From NCBI GenBank assembly GCA_947462765.1, contig CANHQK010000003.1, forward strand, positions 1-64,000: 64,000 bases of DNA. The letters are read 5' to 3'. Both the position numbers and the translations under genes were made by a program. This DNA is from Bdellovibrionales bacterium. Lineage in GTDB: Bacteria > Bdellovibrionota > UBA1018 > CAIMNF01. Positions 22,738 through 29,483 of this stretch are shown here, piece after piece (positions within the stretch are counted from its first letter, which is position 1; each line of letters begins with the position of its first letter). Under the pieces are notes generated by a model, which was not told the DNA's origin, did not search any database, and saw nothing but the letters and a program-made list of their open reading frames with translations.

Positions 22738-22939
22738 TCCTCATCTTTCGGAGCCTTGCCGTCAATTCTTTAGACAGGTGTGTGATCCTTTCCTGACAGG
22801 TCCGAAGGTCCACCAAACTCATTAAAACCAAAGCCTCGTAATTACAATCACTTGAAGCGGCGACCGAACTCCGCTGGCCTCAGTCTGGCTGGCATCCTTT
22901 TTGAAGATAAGGGGATACAGAAAGGCCAGGCACCGCAAA

Positions 22940-23977
22940 GTGAAAACCATCTCCCTGATCCTTGCATTCCTCATCCTGACCCTTCCGCTGACTCAAGCAG
23001 CGTCCCCGAAAGCATTCCAGATCCGGAACTGGGGTCTCGAGGACCGAGCGATCAGTGTCGAGCGTGCCTGGAAACTCACCGAAGGCAGTCGCAATGTGAT
23101 TGTGGCCGTGATCGATACCGGAATCGATGCCTCCCACCCTGATTTGAAACCCAATCTCTGGAAGTCTCCTGGAAACCGGAATCGCCCTTCCAGCGGATCC
23201 GTTTACGGATGGGACTTTGTGACCCAAGGCCCGAACCCGGTCGACTTCCACGGACACGGGACTCACATTGCGGGTATCATCGGAGCCATCGCAAATCCCC
23301 GGACCGGTACCTCGGGAGTCACCCGGAACGTTCAGATCATGCCGGTCCGCTACTATTCGGAACATGCGCCCGGATCTGTGAACCTGTCCAATACGATCAA
23401 AGCCCTGCATTACGCGATCGACAACGGTGCACGGATCATCAACTACTCCGGCGGCGGCCCCGAGTATTCCGAGGAGGAATACCAGGCGATGAAAAAAGCC
23501 GAGGAGCGTGGAGTCCTCATCGTCGCTGCAGCCGGTAATGACCGTCACAACACCGATGTCGAAGAGTACCGGTATTACCCTGCCGCATACGGACTGAAAG
23601 GCCTGAAGAACATCATCACGGTGGCATCCATGGACTCTGAAAACCGGATCCTGCCCTCCTCCAACTGGGGCGTACGCTCAGTCGATGTCGCTGCTCCGGG
23701 CGAAAGCATCTTGAGTACCATTCCTGGCGGACGCTACGGGCGGATGACCGGGACATCCCAAGCCACAGCATTTGTCTCGGGAATCGCAGCACTGATCCTC
23801 TCAAAGGCACCCGCACTGAGCCCGGCCCAAGTGAAAGAACTCATCGTGAAGAACACGACTCCCATCGCCAACCTCCGAACCAAGGTCGGCTCGGGCGGCA
23901 AGGTCGACGCGTTCCGAGCGATCTCGGCTCTGGACGCAGGTCGTGGCGCCGATCGCTCCACGGCTTCCAAAAAATAA
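22940..23977 (+). CDS. secreted subtilisin-like serine protease (S8)
   Basis: A 345-residue S8 peptidase with signal peptide (ISLILAFLILTLPLTQAA). The triad is complete: Asp in AVIDTGID, His in HGHGTHIAG, Ser in GTSQATAFVSG, and the oxyanion Asn in AAAGND. There is almost no propeptide between signal and catalytic domain. I propose the GTG at 22940, which leaves a compact signal peptide; a TTG at 22901 would add 13 mostly basic residues. Predicted to work in the periplasm or outside the cell. Confidence 0.9.
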   Translation: MKTISLILAFLILTLPLTQAASPKAFQIRNWGLEDRAISVERAWKLTEGSRNVIVAVIDTGIDASHPDLKPNLWKSPGNRNRPSSGSVYGWDFVTQGPNPVDFHGHGTHIAGIIGAIANPRTGTSGVTRNVQIMPVRYYSEHAPGSVNLSNTIKALHYAIDNGARIINYSGGGPEYSEEEYQAMKKAEERGVLIVAAAGNDRHNTDVEEYRYYPAAYGLKGLKNIITVASMDSENRILPSSNWGVRSVDVAAPGESILSTIPGGRYGRMTGTSQATAFVSGIAALILSKAPALSPAQVKELIVKNTTPIANLRTKVGSGGKVDAFRAISALDAGRGADRSTASKK

Positions 23978-24015: not shown

Positions 24016-25620
24016 TTGAAGGCGCTAGTTTTGTCCGCATCCCTGAGCGGAATCCTGTATGTGCTGTCGTTCGCCCCTTGGGACCTCCATGTCTTCCAGT
24101 GGTTCGCCTTTGTTCCATTACTTTGGGCAGCGGACAGGATCCGGGAACGTCCAGGATCGCTGAAGGCGACCCTCCTGGCCGGAACCTGGATGTCGATGAT
24201 CATCTGCTTCGGTGGCTTTTACTGGATGGTGGGAGCGACCATGAGATACGGTGGTCTGCCCCTTCCAGCAGCGCTGGGGGTATTCCTGGCCTTCTCATTT
24301 ACCGGTCAGCTCCAGGTGCCGCTTTATTTGTGGCTCCGGGACCGCCTGCTACGACAGTCTTCCAAAACGACCACGGCCATTCTTGTGCAACCGCTCTTGC
24401 TCGGAATATTTTATGCCGGAATCGAGTCCCTCTATCCGAAAGTTTTTCTTGATACGGCCGGACATGCGTTTCAAGCCTCTCTCAGGATCCGTCAGGCTGC
24501 GGATATTGGAGGAGTCTTCTTCCTGACTTTTCTCTCACTCGTGGTCAATGAAGGCCTGACTGCCACCTTTCGCTCTAAAAAGCGCAGTCCCGCGGCCCTC
24601 GCGCTTGGGCTCATTGTCCTCACTCTTGCCTACGGGCAGTGGCGGGTGAACCAGCATGCGGTTTACGAAGCCGAACGCACACCCTCCGCTCCACAGCTGA
24701 AGGTTTCGATGATTCAGGCCAACATCGGTGATTTCGTTAAAGTGGCGGCCGAACAGGGAACCCATGATGCCATGACGACCGTGCTCGAGCAGTACCTCGG
24801 TCTCTCAAGAAAGGCCGTCGAAGGAGAGCACCGTCCCGATGCGGTCATCTGGCCCGAAACGGCCTACCCCTCGATTTTCGGAAGCCCTGAATCACCCAAC
24901 GAAAAACGGATGGAAAGTCGTCTTCTTGGTTTTCTCGAGTCCCTACCCGGAACTCTCATCTTCGGGGGTTATGACCGTGACTTGAAAGGGGTGGAGTACA
25001 ATTCTCTTTTTTTCCATCAGGCTTCCACGCCATCGACCCGTGTCTACCACAAGAATGTGCTCCTCATGTTCGGCGAGACCCTACCCTTCGCAGAATCCTT
25101 CCCGTCGATGAAAACCTGGTTTCCCACCATGGGTTTTTTCGGCAGAGGCCCGGGGCCTGAGGTGATCGAGGTGAAAAACAAGGAAGGCCGGTCTTTCCGG
25201 ATGGCTCCATCGATTTGCTATGAGGGCCTGATCGGTGAGCATTCAGCCAAGGGCGCCTTGCTCGGTGCGGATGCATTGTTGAATGTGACCAATGACTCCT
25301 GGTTCGGCCCGGACGGAGAGCCCTACCTCCACCTTGCCCTGACCCGTTTCCGCACGGTGGAGACGCGATTGCCCCTCCTCCGTTCCACGAACACCGGATT
25401 CAGTGTTTGGATGGATGCCCTGGGCGAGACCCGGGGGCAGACCGGCTTGTTCGAGAGCGCCGTGCTGAACGCAGACATCCAGCACCGGACCTGGCCACTC
25501 TCTCCTTATCTCGAGATAAGCAGGAGTCTCGGGCTGATGAACTGGTTTGAGCGGGTCTGCCAGATCCTGACCCTCATTTTCACGGGCATTTTTTTCGCTC
25601 GCCGCCTCCGCTCCACTTGA
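24016..25620 (+). CDS. lnt: apolipoprotein N-acyltransferase
   Basis: A 534-residue inner-membrane enzyme that adds the third acyl chain to lipoproteins. The N-terminal half holds about six membrane segments. The nitrilase domain has the triad Glu281 (WPETAYP), Lys346 (YHKNVLLMFGE) and Cys401 (SICYEG). A final membrane segment (QILTLIFTGIFFARR) precedes the end. The only usable start is the TTG at 24016, since an in-frame TAG lies 15 bases upstream. The window has several likely substrates (25754-26284, bamB, 50483-51544). Confidence 0.95.
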   Translation: MKALVLSASLSGILYVLSFAPWDLHVFQWFAFVPLLWAADRIRERPGSLKATLLAGTWMSMIICFGGFYWMVGATMRYGGLPLPAALGVFLAFSFTGQLQVPLYLWLRDRLLRQSSKTTTAILVQPLLLGIFYAGIESLYPKVFLDTAGHAFQASLRIRQAADIGGVFFLTFLSLVVNEGLTATFRSKKRSPAALALGLIVLTLAYGQWRVNQHAVYEAERTPSAPQLKVSMIQANIGDFVKVAAEQGTHDAMTTVLEQYLGLSRKAVEGEHRPDAVIWPETAYPSIFGSPESPNEKRMESRLLGFLESLPGTLIFGGYDRDLKGVEYNSLFFHQASTPSTRVYHKNVLLMFGETLPFAESFPSMKTWFPTMGFFGRGPGPEVIEVKNKEGRSFRMAPSICYEGLIGEHSAKGALLGADALLNVTNDSWFGPDGEPYLHLALTRFRTVETRLPLLRSTNTGFSVWMDALGETRGQTGLFESAVLNADIQHRTWPLSPYLEISRSLGLMNWFERVCQILTLIFTGIFFARRLRST

Positions 25621-25645: not shown

Positions 25646-25666
25646 GGTGTCCAAAGCCTGGACACC
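25646..25666. repeat. inverted repeat upstream of a sigma-54 promoter
   Basis: GGTGTCC (25646-25652) and GGACACC (25660-25666) are perfect inverted copies with 7 bases between. It lies after the lnt stop and about 38 bases before the sigma-54-like element. It has no T-run, so it is a weak terminator candidate; it could be an activator-binding site. Confidence 0.35.
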
Positions 25667-25703: not shown

Positions 25704-25721
25704 TTGGCATCGGGGTTGCAT
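25704..25721 (+). promoter_or_regulatory. sigma-54-type promoter
   Basis: TTGGCATCGGGGTTGCAT has GG at -24 and GC at -12 with the exact 10-base gap and matches the consensus TGGCAC-N5-TTGC at almost every position. It lies 32 bases before the ATG of the lipoprotein gene at 25754. It is nearly identical to the element at 29076-29093. Use would need RpoN and an enhancer-binding protein, neither of which is in the window. Confidence 0.7.
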
Positions 25722-25753
25722 TCCTTCAAGGTGTAGGGATTGAGAGGGAGAAT

Positions 25754-26284
25754 ATGAAAATCATTAAAAACCTGTCTCTGGGATTGATTCTGGCCGGATT
25801 GGTGTCCGCTTGCGGTGCACGCCCGCAATTTGCAGATCGCTTCGATGGCTACTCCAACTCCTGGGGTCCCTCCGAATCCGGACAATACATGTCCGCTGAC
25901 CTTCAGTGCTCGGAAATCCCGAACATCACCGGAACCAGTGGCGCCGCCTCCCAGGAATACCGGGCCTGCCGGACCCAGACGGCTTCCACTTCGATCCGCA
26001 TTTTCCCTGCCGACGGCGCCCTCCGCACCGTGTGTGTGTTCCCCACTCTCGGTGGCCGTGGCATCGTTTCGAATCCCTACGGAAACGTCTACAACCGCTA
26101 TGCGGTCCAGTGCACGAACGTGAGCGCAGAGGGTGCCTCCATCACTTTCGGATCGATTCAGTTCGATGGCATCCAGGTGGTCCGCGCGACGGACGCAGGA
26201 ACCCTGTCCTTCTGTCTGGCCCACAGTAACGTATCGGCCTGCGCCTCGCAGTATTCGCTTCAGAACGCGAGCGGATCCCTCTAA
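25754..26284 (+). CDS. small lipoprotein of unknown function
   Basis: A 176-residue lipoprotein. The signal peptide MKIIKNLSLGLILAGLVSAC ends in a lipobox with Cys20. The ATG at 25754 has GAGGGAG just upstream; longer frames lack a signal. The mature protein is rich in Ser, Thr, Asn and Gly with several scattered cysteines (LQCSEIP, YRACRT, VCVFPT, VQCTNV, FCLAH, SACASQ), which could form disulfides in the periplasm. It appears to be a single gene driven by the sigma-54 promoter at 25704. Family not recognised. Confidence 0.75.
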   Translation: MKIIKNLSLGLILAGLVSACGARPQFADRFDGYSNSWGPSESGQYMSADLQCSEIPNITGTSGAASQEYRACRTQTASTSIRIFPADGALRTVCVFPTLGGRGIVSNPYGNVYNRYAVQCTNVSAEGASITFGSIQFDGIQVVRATDAGTLSFCLAHSNVSACASQYSLQNASGSL

Positions 26285-27240
26285 TGGATGTTTCTGCGGA
26301 CCTTCTCGGGCAGGAGATTCTCACCTGCCTCGGCCTGATCCATTGAAGACGGGCTCCCGAGCACTTCTTTCTTTCCATGGCGGCACATGCCGACCAATTC
26401 AGGATCCCGGGTCGGGAACACATCAATGATCTCGATCTGCGTCTCGTCAGCAGTATCCTTGGCGATCACTACATACCAATACGGCTCGTCGTGATCATAG
26501 CGTTTAATGAAATGGTAGATCCGCTTGGCCGACTTCGGCTGATAGCTCCAGAGCTCGTTCGGCTTCTGTAAGGTCTCCTCGAGACACTTTTGATAAAAAC
26601 CGAAATCTTCGGGAGCGATATCGTTCGCCTTACGTGACCTGATGATCATGGCCCGGACAGAATCGGCCTCGGTCCAAGGCTCGGCAAGCCGATCCGATTC
26701 GGAATCTTCCCCACGTGAACGAACAGGGGAACCTTCTTCGGTCGTCTCGGACGCCCCCCCATCCTTCACCACGCTCATCTGATCGCCACGACGGAAAACA
26801 TCCACGAGGCCTCTGTCAGAGCTTACGAAAGCGAGATAGAGGAAGCTCGGCTCACCCCTCAACATGAGGCAAACCGCAACAGCCCAGACTTTCTTGCTTT
26901 CGGGCGTGTATTCGGAAATCAAAGTGTAGCGCCGGTCCCCCTTCGGAAGAGTCTCCATCCAGACTTCATCAGGATTCTCGAGAGCCATCCATCTGAAGTG
27001 AGCATACCGCTCACGCTCTTCGCTCGACAGATCTTGAGGGGAAACATGTTTCCCGTACTCGCGTTCGAGCTTTTCGATCTCAGGGGTGAAGTGGCTGACG
27101 ATGCAACCTTCATCACAGAAATATCTGCCGACTTCCTCTTCAACAAAAAGGGCCTGATCCCGCTTGGAAATGACCTTTTTACACTCTTCGCAATGAATTT
27201 TTGCCGATTTCTTGGCCGAACCGCGCGGTTTTGAACTCAT
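26281..27240 (-). CDS. zinc-ribbon protein with a duplicated domain
   Basis: A 319-residue cytoplasmic protein. Cys17, Cys20, Cys42 and Cys46 form a treble-clef-like zinc ribbon. Two copies of one domain follow: about 76-152 (NPDEVWMETL...RRYTLISEY...VDVFRRG) and about 212-289 (KPNELWSYQP...KRIYHFIKRY...IDVFPTRD...CRHG), joined by an acidic linker (160-195). The P-x-E-[VL]-W opening recalls small barnase/EndoU-like (PBECR-type) domains, but I cannot confirm nuclease residues. It converges on the lipoprotein gene with a 4-base overlap. Confidence 0.65.
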   Translation of the reverse strand: MSSKPRGSAKKSAKIHCEECKKVISKRDQALFVEEEVGRYFCDEGCIVSHFTPEIEKLEREYGKHVSPQDLSSEERERYAHFRWMALENPDEVWMETLPKGDRRYTLISEYTPESKKVWAVAVCLMLRGEPSFLYLAFVSSDRGLVDVFRRGDQMSVVKDGGASETTEEGSPVRSRGEDSESDRLAEPWTEADSVRAMIIRSRKANDIAPEDFGFYQKCLEETLQKPNELWSYQPKSAKRIYHFIKRYDHDEPYWYVVIAKDTADETQIEIIDVFPTRDPELVGMCRHGKKEVLGSPSSMDQAEAGENLLPEKVRRNIH

Positions 27241-27461
27241 CCTAAGTCCCCCGGGAGTTGCTCTCCGATTGCCGACCCCATCCTAGGGCCTACTCTTCAA
27301 GTCTGAGCCCTGCCGGGGATCCCGTCAATGACAGCTTTCCACCGCAGTTCCGGGAAAAGGCGGCCTGGAACCGGGAGGCGAGCGTGGAAATTTTGTCGTT
27401 GCGCTTTTTTCCTGACTCCGGAAAACTATTGGAAGGGGTAGGATGCCCCTGTTTGGCACAT

Positions 27462-27483
27462 CACTTCACCCACACTTCACCCA
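27462..27483. repeat. perfect tandem 11-mer duplication
   Basis: CACTTCACCCA occurs twice in direct succession (27462-27472 and 27473-27483), immediately before the GGAGGGG ribosome-binding site of the next gene and right after TTGGCAC (27453-27459), a perfect sigma-54 -24 box. The -12 position reads CA rather than GC. Confidence 0.6.
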
Positions 27484-27498
27484 CGGAGGGGTACGGGG

Positions 27499-27807
27499 AT
27501 GATCACAGTCTCACAAGAACAGCTCACCACGGTCGAATACCTGATCAAACAATCCACTCAAGGGAACCACATTCTTTTTGATATCGATGTGGTTCGGAAG
27601 GTTTTCTCGAATCAGACCAAGCCCATGAGCGAAGCAGAGGCCCGTGAAATCGAAGGGCACATCGAGAAGCTCATCTGCCTCGAAGGCTATGAACGGCAGA
27701 AGGCTTACCTCTCCAGGCTTCCCGAGATGGTCCTGTACAGGGTCGTGAAAATCTATTTCAACATCGTCGAAAACAATCTGTTTGAAACCAGCCGGATCCG
27801 CCATTGA
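27499..27807 (+). CDS. small conserved-looking cytoplasmic protein, unknown function
   Basis: A 102-residue protein without signal or membrane segment, predicted mostly helical (MSEAEAREIEGHIEKLICLEG, QKAYLSRLPEMVLYRVVKIYFNIVEN). GGAGGGG lies 8 bases before the ATG. It is 18 bases upstream of the coiled-coil/alpha-crystallin-like gene and is probably co-transcribed with it, so it may be a partner. The 258 bases before it hold the tandem 11-mer and a sigma-54-like -24 box; I see nothing else there. No family recognised. Confidence 0.7.
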   Translation: MITVSQEQLTTVEYLIKQSTQGNHILFDIDVVRKVFSNQTKPMSEAEAREIEGHIEKLICLEGYERQKAYLSRLPEMVLYRVVKIYFNIVENNLFETSRIRH

Positions 27808-27825
27808 TCCAGGAAGGAGCCTCCC

Positions 27826-28968
27826 GTGAGCCGAGTTGAAAACGGTTATTCTGCAAGCCAGGAACTGGCGGAGCAGTACCGCCTCCAACGGGAACAAAAA
27901 CAGTCCCTGCAAGACTCCCACGAAGCCGAAGTCGAGAATCTAAAAAAATCACATATGGCCGAAACGTCCGATTTACAGGACCGTTTTGAGTCCTCCTCAC
28001 AGGCCCAGCGCCTCGCCCACTACGAGCACCTCCGGAACCAGAAGAATCAGATCAACCGCGAGGAACGCGATCTCCAGACTCGGGGACGCGAGTCGATTGC
28101 AGAGACCAAGCGAGAACTCGAAACCGAGGCGTTCAAGACAGAGCAAGAAGGCCGGACCCGGGTTGAAGATCAAAGAAAGCGCTATGCCGCACTCGAGCAG
28201 TACGAACGCCAACGTGAGCGCACGGCCAAGGACGACCTCCACCGGAGCCACATCCGGAACACCGAGCTCCTGGTTCAGAACACTGAGAAGGCCACCCAGG
28301 ATCTCCGGGAGCAACGGGAGGCCTACCTCGAGGTTCAGAAAGAAAACCACCGGGCGTCCCTCGAGGGAATCCGCGACCATTATCAGAAAATCCGGGACGA
28401 GAAGCATCAGCGGTACGTCGATGAACTCCGTGAGGTCGAGCACCGGACGACCGAATCCTTGAATGAACGGAAACTCGCTTCCGCAGAGAAGCTCCGGATC
28501 CAAGATACCCGCGCTAACGACCCCTTCTACCGGATCAAGCAATTCGAGTCCGCCATGGAAGACCGGGGTGAGACGATCTCACTCCGGGTGAGAGTTCCCG
28601 AGCATGAGCGCAAGGGCGTGCGTGTCCAAGTGAGCGGGAATGACCTTGAATTGATCGGAACCCGGGTGTCAGACGAACGGGCCATGTTGGAACCGGGCCG
28701 TGTGGTCTCCACCCGTTCCCACCAGATCCTCTCCGAACGCTTTGCCCTCCCGGCCCCCGTTGATCCGAAGTCCGTCTCCATGCATGAAGACGGCGAATGG
28801 ATCGAGTACCGTCTCGTCAAGTTCGGACCCCATCACCCTGTGTCGGGGCCCGCCTCCCATCAAATCGATCAGGACCTCAGTCCGATCGCACGGGAGCTCC
28901 GCTTTGTCGAAAACCTTCCCCGCCCTTCCGTGATGAACCAGGACAGCGGGAAGGGAACCCTCACCTGA
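27826..28968 (+). CDS. long coiled-coil protein with a C-terminal alpha-crystallin-like domain
   Basis: A 380-residue cytoplasmic protein. Residues about 10-225 are an almost uninterrupted charged helix rich in Glu, Arg, Gln and Lys, a predicted coiled coil. Residues about 248-334 look like a small heat-shock/alpha-crystallin domain: ISLRVRVPEHERKGVRVQVS, NDLELIGTR, then SERFALPAPVDPKSVSM and EYRLVKF, matching the strand order with the conserved F-x-L-P-x-x-V-D block. The tail (335-380) appears disordered. The GTG start has GGAAGGAG upstream. Likely a filamentous or oligomeric scaffold with chaperone-like ends; function inferred only from layout. Confidence 0.75.
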   Translation: MSRVENGYSASQELAEQYRLQREQKQSLQDSHEAEVENLKKSHMAETSDLQDRFESSSQAQRLAHYEHLRNQKNQINREERDLQTRGRESIAETKRELETEAFKTEQEGRTRVEDQRKRYAALEQYERQRERTAKDDLHRSHIRNTELLVQNTEKATQDLREQREAYLEVQKENHRASLEGIRDHYQKIRDEKHQRYVDELREVEHRTTESLNERKLASAEKLRIQDTRANDPFYRIKQFESAMEDRGETISLRVRVPEHERKGVRVQVSGNDLELIGTRVSDERAMLEPGRVVSTRSHQILSERFALPAPVDPKSVSMHEDGEWIEYRLVKFGPHHPVSGPASHQIDQDLSPIARELRFVENLPRPSVMNQDSGKGTLT

Positions 28969-29039
28969 ATAAGATTTAGACACTCACTGAAGATCCCTGA
29001 CAGCAACGGAACCCGTTGATCTGAAAAATCCCCAGTTAT

Positions 29040-29061
29040 TTCAAGCGAATCTTGGTTTGAA
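29040..29061. repeat. imperfect palindrome upstream of a sigma-54 promoter
   Basis: TTCAAGCGAA-TC-TTGGTTTGAA: two 10-base arms pairing at 8 positions, ending 14 bases before the sigma-54 -24 box. It may be a protein-binding site, though activator sites for sigma-54 usually lie further upstream. Confidence 0.35.
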
Positions 29062-29075
29062 TCCGGCCTTCCGGC

Positions 29076-29093
29076 TTGGCATCCCTGTTGCAT
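29076..29093 (+). promoter_or_regulatory. sigma-54-type promoter
   Basis: TTGGCATCCCTGTTGCAT keeps the GG-N10-GC geometry and differs from the element at 25704 at only three of 18 positions; the downstream CTTC is also shared. It lies 66 bases before the ATG at 29160, with no other gene between. The two elements probably serve one regulon. Confidence 0.75.
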
Positions 29094-29159: not shown

Positions 29160-29483
29160 ATGTCAGCAGCGAAAGACTCTTCCCAGCCCAGCTTCTTCAT
29201 CTACTCCAACTTCCCCCACCTTGCCTTGAAGGGAAAGTCGATCGCTCAGCCCGAACTCACCAAAGGCATGGTTCTCAAATCAGCTCGTGCAGAAGCACTC
29301 CCTGCCCCGGCTGAAGTCCGGGTCGTTTCGCAGGCCGAAACCGAAGCCTTCGCAGGCTGGACCTCAGGAGAGGCTGGCTCTGCCCGGAGCGGAGTCGCAC
29401 AACAACTTCTCACACTCCGCCAAGCGCGGAAGCGGCTCTCGTTCATGATGCAAGAAATCGACGAGATCCTGAAACGCGCCTGA
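29160..29483 (+). CDS. small protein of unknown function under a sigma-54 promoter
   Basis: A 107-residue protein. The N-terminal half is Ser/Ala/Pro-rich and probably flexible; the C-terminal 35 residues form an amphipathic helix (QQLLTLRQARKRLSFMMQEI...). No signal peptide or membrane segment. AAAGGA lies 9 bases before the ATG at 29160; a GTG at 29133 would add nine residues. It is transcribed alone, with a terminator right after it. Family not recognised. Confidence 0.6.
   Translation: MSAAKDSSQPSFFIYSNFPHLALKGKSIAQPELTKGMVLKSARAEALPAPAEVRVVSQAETEAFAGWTSGEAGSARSGVAQQLLTLRQARKRLSFMMQEIDEILKRA

Follow-up and report, generated by a model that had tools for sequence, protein, structure and literature searches.

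A sigma-54 regulon very probably accounts for three promoter boxes, starting at 22889, 25704 and 29076, in the 64-kb window (the whole stretch of DNA analyzed, 64,000 nucleotides), which comes from an uncultured relative of Bdellovibrio. An enhancer-binding protein (EBP), likely one with a PocR-like sensor, would activate these promoters from a palindrome that they share, and the regulon appears to extend over the genome and to consist mostly of genes for exported proteins. The features concerned are as follows.

22759..22777, no strand: palindrome CCGTCAATTCTTTAGACAG, a putative upstream activating sequence (UAS) before the subtilase gene; 15.4 bits, third best in the 64-kb window
22889..22906, + strand: noncanonical -24/-12 box CTGGCATCCTTTTTGAAG (GG-N10-GA), kept before subtilase orthologs
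22940..23977, + strand: exported subtilase (S8 peptidase; PF00082, E = 1.2e-61), probable regulon member, syntenic in genus and order
24016..25620, + strand: apolipoprotein N-acyltransferase gene, lnt (LNT_N, 1.9e-19; CN_hydrolase, 1.3e-13)
25647..25665, no strand: palindrome GTGTCCAAAGCCTGGACAC, putative UAS before the lipoprotein gene; 21.3 bits
25704..25721, + strand: -24/-12 box TTGGCATCGGGGTTGCATTCCTTC / TTGGCATCGGGGTTGCAT (GG-N10-GC), conserved in orthologs
25754..26284, + strand: 176-aa Cys-rich lipoprotein with an LVSAC lipobox and six further Cys residues, invariant in the alignment
27453..27470, + strand: fourth proposed site, TTGGCACATCACTTCACC, upstream of the coiled-coil operon; rejected, with a score of 0.68
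28965..28983, no strand: palindrome CTGAATAAGATTTAGACAC, putative UAS before the 107-aa gene; 21.6 bits, the window's best, conserved
29076..29093, + strand: -24/-12 box TTGGCATCCCTGTTGCATTTCTTC / TTGGCATCCCTGTTGCAT (GG-N10-GC), conserved in all 11 copies found
29160..29483, + strand: 107-aa cytoplasmic protein; in the predicted model, its N-terminal half is disordered and residues 58 to 106 form a C-terminal helix

Promoter boxes and their conservation

The preliminary description had singled out the boxes at 25704 and 29076 as near identical, with exact GG-N10-GC spacing and a single small orphan gene behind each, and had added degenerate boxes at 22889 (GG-N10-GA) and 27453 (GG-N10-CA). All four sequences exist as described. 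At 25704 and 29076, GG and GC stand 10 bases apart in a TTGGCAY-N5-TTGCW context, 50 nt before the ATG of the lipoprotein gene and 84 nt before that of the 107-aa gene, and transcription would be expected to start at about 25730 and 29102, respectively. The exact sequence TTGGCATCN3GTTGCATT occurs at these two positions only in the 2.33-Mb draft genome, which holds no copy with one mismatch and no match to the reversed pattern. A recent duplication behind the two near-identical promoters was rejected, because the two promoters are not the same in relatives, for example G003 and G010. Genome-wide, the box pattern has 23 matches (7 for the reversed pattern), and the intergenic matches precede genes. 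In the window alone, with three mismatches allowed, the number of box matches is unexceptional (as many arise in 14 of 100 shuffles), and it is conservation that makes 25704 and 29076 convincing as candidate promoters.

Orthologs were sought in a sample of 117 genomes of the phylum, the window's own included. Twenty of these carry genes of the lipoprotein family and 11 those of the 107-aa family (window's own counted), so both genes have relatives and are orphans in a qualified sense only. Neither family has a Pfam or NCBIfam match. On a hand-weighted consensus score, expressed as a fraction of its maximum, the spacer box reaches at least 0.95 before every one of the 11 copies of the 107-aa gene and at least 0.84 before nearly all lipoprotein genes, the exception being a partial match in G006. 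The box precedes nearly all complete orthologs of both genes, from genus to order and down to 25 to 30% protein identity, and in close relatives it is the best-conserved block of a spacer that has otherwise diverged. Synteny covers the whole neighborhood as well: the order subtilase, lnt, lipoprotein, PBECR2 gene, 102-aa/coiled-coil genes, 107-aa gene holds throughout the genus, and this block can still be recognized in other families of the order.

A shared palindrome upstream of the boxes

Alignments of the ortholog spacers revealed a 19-bp palindrome, approximately GTGTCYAAA-N-TTTRGACAC, upstream of the boxes of both genes. The palindrome at 25647 lies 57 nt from the -24 box, a spacing that is equal in most genus orthologs; that at 28965 overlaps the stop codon of the upstream coiled-coil gene and lies 111 nt from its box in the window (80 to 111 nt across relatives). 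A matrix (18.7 bits) built from the sites of these two genes, and hence trained partly on the window's own two sites, gave three strong matches in the 64-kb window, at 28965 (21.6 bits), 25647 (21.3 bits), and 22759 (15.4 bits), with the next match at 9.2 bits. The third of these, absent from the training set, lies 130 nt upstream of the 22889 box and is kept in G001, G009, and G003.

Because this palindrome stands before the subtilase gene and is among the window's three best, we assign the 22889 box to the regulon. The box keeps GG but has GA (TTGA) in place of GC at -12, in the form TTGGCAY..TTGAA in G001, G009, G003, and G004 and ..TTGTA in G002 and G011; in other families, including family f2, it is canonical (TTGC), each time with the palindrome. 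Since the altered -12 element is kept in relatives together with the palindrome, it is an old, tolerated variant and not a sign of decay. The lnt gene starts about 39 nt past the subtilase stop codon and is likely read through from the subtilase promoter. The fourth site, at 27453, was rejected as a sigma-54 promoter, as it has no UAS and its box is absent in the nearest relatives (G001, G009, and G004); a chance match is the right reading. The proposal of a shared RpoN regulon thus stands for 22889, 25704, and 29076, with rpoN, conservation, a common palindrome, and a probable activator behind it, but not for 27453.

In the same region, most of the genus keeps a block, AATTTTGTCGTTGCGCTTTTTT (27388-27420), that lies between the 102-aa/coiled-coil operon and the divergently oriented PBECR2 gene and is not a sigma-54 box. 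The PBECR2 protein (26281-27240, - strand), which has a phage-type RelE/EndoU-like nuclease domain, is unlikely to be encoded by a recent phage gene here, because the gene is syntenic throughout the order. The long coiled-coil protein encoded at 27826-28968 has a weak Hsp20-like C-terminal part and forms a conserved pair with the 102-aa protein.

Beyond the window, the palindrome pattern alone, with at most one mismatch, had 57 matches in 12 genus genomes, compared with 19 for the reversed pattern. Among 45 fetched sites in related genomes, all outside the training loci, 34 had a box (score of at least 0.82) within 20 to 170 nt of the palindrome, where about 1.7 were expected; the corresponding frequencies near control positions were 3.7% (random) and 3.9% (intergenic) (binomial P ~ 1e-38). 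Distances between the palindrome and the box in these pairs ranged from 36 to 134 nt, with no significant helical phasing (P = 0.34 at 10.5 bp). About 16 promoters of the window's genome carry both elements, a sample gathered by pattern searches that represents an incomplete regulon; the regulon is therefore not limited to one 7-kb neighborhood, as had been suggested. Separately, a 19.2-bit palindrome without a good -24/-12 box was observed before a Flp-pilin-like gene at L152 (G000:C13, 8184-8411).

RpoN and the candidate activator

RNA polymerase carrying RpoN waits in a closed complex at a -24/-12 box until a looping EBP dimer opens it with ATP, and sigma-54 promoters require an activator of this type. 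Both rpoN and EBPs, for which a search had been proposed, were found in the genome: RpoN is encoded by one full-length copy (501 aa; PF04552, E = 2e-65) with a complete RpoN box, ARRTVAKYREML, so the regulon cannot be rejected for absence of rpoN, and about a dozen EBP-like proteins are encoded. We propose that sigma-54 polymerase would use the boxes at 22889, 25704, and 29076 as promoters and that an EBP dimer, bound to the 19-bp palindrome 57 to 130 nt upstream of the box, would contact the promoter through DNA looping and melt it by ATP hydrolysis. The predicted activator is an EBP of about 530 aa that combines an N-terminal PocR-like sensor with an AAA+ domain of the GAFTGA type and a helix-turn-helix (HTH) of the Fis type.

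At the regulon promoters sampled, no EBP gene adjoins. The palindrome regularly precedes the start codon of the EBP's own gene in one EBP family only (EBP genes of G010, G002, and the window's genome), where one to three copies are found, often two or three in tandem about 21 to 23 bp apart. Across relatives, 24 of 28 candidate EBP genes had one or more palindromes scoring at least 8 bits in the 160 bp upstream, versus 1 of 37 other EBP genes (0.013 expected). Other EBPs, considered in three genomes, were rejected as the activator, the sole upstream match among them lying at the 8.0-bit threshold. In further families, both in the class and elsewhere in the phylum, copies of the candidate EBP gene likewise carry the palindrome, and the N-terminal part of the protein was found in 103 of the 117 genomes. 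In the window's genome, the palindrome, CTGCCTAAAGTTTAGGCAC (19.2 bits), is intact 75 nt before the EBP start codon, and the gene is cut after about 156 residues by the end of contig C26, which is why the domain search missed it; the AAA+ domain and the HTH are accordingly seen in relatives only. There, the protein is 520 to 550 aa long, begins with MINWEELKHIHVIRKLEEIL, has a Sigma54_activat domain (PF00158, 1e-71) with GSFTGA, and closes with a Fis HTH (PF02954, 1.8e-11) ending in LGISRAGLIMKVEKYGL. Ten of 12 members matched the PocR sensory domain (PF10114) weakly in their N-terminal sensor (best E = 3.5e-4), and we call the sensor only "PocR-like" because the match, at 20.7 bits, falls below the curated cutoff of 23.9 bits. 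A search for a solved structural relative of this domain found none. The HTH is nearly identical in G001, G009, G002, and G010, in step with the unchanged palindrome. Taken together, the PocR-like-sensor EBP most likely binds the palindrome as the activator of the regulon.

Because the palindromes before the EBP gene sit tight against its start and no -24/-12 box was noted there, they probably mediate autorepression of a sigma-70-type promoter. EBP-like AAA+/HTH proteins without a GAFTGA loop were also observed, at L140 (G000:C21, 3612-4457, - strand), L050, and L049. That on C21 has 282 aa, is 90% identical in G002, and is encoded about 2 kb from an exported gene that appears to be under palindrome control.

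It is improbable, in our estimate, that the promoters and palindromes are real but that another EBP binds the palindrome, or that two EBPs share it. The dozen or so EBP-like proteins would leave room for this, Fis-type HTHs can share GTC..GAC half-sites (compare the FleQ box, GTCAAT-N2-ATTGAC; PMC10723142), and in G050 (78% complete) three palindrome-box pairs were found and the candidate EBP was not. However, the PocR-like EBP alone regularly has the palindrome before its own gene, and its HTH is as nearly constant as the palindrome. Less probable still is that the palindrome serves a repressor or other non-EBP regulator while some other EBP activates the boxes: a palindrome by itself does not name its binding protein, but a palindrome tied strictly to boxes at 36 to 134 nt and to an EBP gene has the pattern of an EBP enhancer, and an activator of this type is required at sigma-54 promoters. 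The reading as selection-neutral or chance matches in short spacers, which the shuffle count for the window would allow, is refuted for 22889, 25704, and 29076 by ortholog conservation amid diverging flanks and by association with the palindrome.

Products of the predicted regulon and comparison with known systems

Judged by a simple signal-peptide/lipobox rule and by reading of N termini, at least 14 of the 16 products are exported, with a signal peptide or a lipobox (a lipobox in six). They include the subtilase of the window, an exported protein with ankyrin repeats, behind which a second subtilase follows, two tandem peptides of 60 residues, and several lipoproteins. Because its members are mostly exported proteins and lipoproteins, the regulon probably adjusts the cell surface and the periplasm to a signal sensed in the cytoplasm. 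In the 176-aa lipoprotein, the predicted model is confident from residue 46 on only (pLDDT of about 90 for most of this region), and its fold had no PDB match at E ≤ 0.001.

The products that are not exported are the 107-aa protein, in whose alignment an initial MSA..D and a helical C terminus are conserved, and a histone homolog. The latter, a 66-aa protein, matches the Bdellovibrio histone Bd0055 (PDB 8cmp/8fvx, E = 3e-15), and the box and palindrome of its gene also occur in G001 and G009. Bd0055 has been described as one of the major chromatin proteins of B. bacteriovorus, and probably an important one (PMC10627809). At the histone genes of the three genomes (L145 [G000:C55, 7420-7896], L192, and L209), the box is canonical and accompanied by the palindrome, and the leader is unusually long, with 183 nt from box to start codon.

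The system resembles those of the NtrC/FleQ type in its GG-N10-GC box, upstream palindromes, activator with a GAFTGA-type AAA+ domain and Fis HTH, and RpoN with an RpoN box, but differs from them in the PocR-like sensor of its predicted activator. It also differs from the FleQ box in arm spacing, which is GTC-N9-GAC here and GTC-N8-GAC in FleQ (PMC10723142). Francke et al. (2011, PMC3162934) proposed a general link between sigma-54 and the cell exterior, with which the exported proteins and lipoproteins found here agree; in contrast to that survey, which dealt mainly with precursor biosynthesis and transport and does not mention Bdellovibrio, the putative targets are the surface proteins themselves and a histone homolog. 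Bdellovibrio bacteriovorus, of the same phylum, likewise has RpoN (RpoN-like bd0843; PMC3464611), and in the FliA-driven attack-phase regulon of Bdellovibrio no motif has been assigned to a third of the promoters (PMC3627812). The open-access literature searched yielded neither an RpoN regulon nor its activator for Bdellovibrio or Bdellovibrionota, an absence that is no proof. Sigma-54/EBP regulons as a kind are already known, and the one predicted here from sequence would be a new example.

Palindrome, box, and EBP together make a directly testable regulon in Bdellovibrionota, a phylum known for organisms that prey on bacteria; the presumed targets include a Bd0055-type histone, exported subtilases, and surface lipoproteins, and many uncharacterized exported proteins gain a common regulatory context. 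We speculate, with considerable doubt, that one RpoN-dependent activator, kept across Bdellovibrionota with its autoregulatory palindromes, could act as a global switch for exported proteases and surface lipoproteins and, within this genus, for a histone as well, linking envelope remodeling with chromatin.

Two further loci were observed. At L150 (G000:C7, 3903-4736), two tandem paralogous genes encode exported peptides of about 60 aa, each gene with its own palindrome and box. At L154 (G000:C9, 7636-7848), a sigma-54-like box without a strong palindrome precedes a gspC-like gene belonging to a type II secretion cluster and may answer to another EBP.
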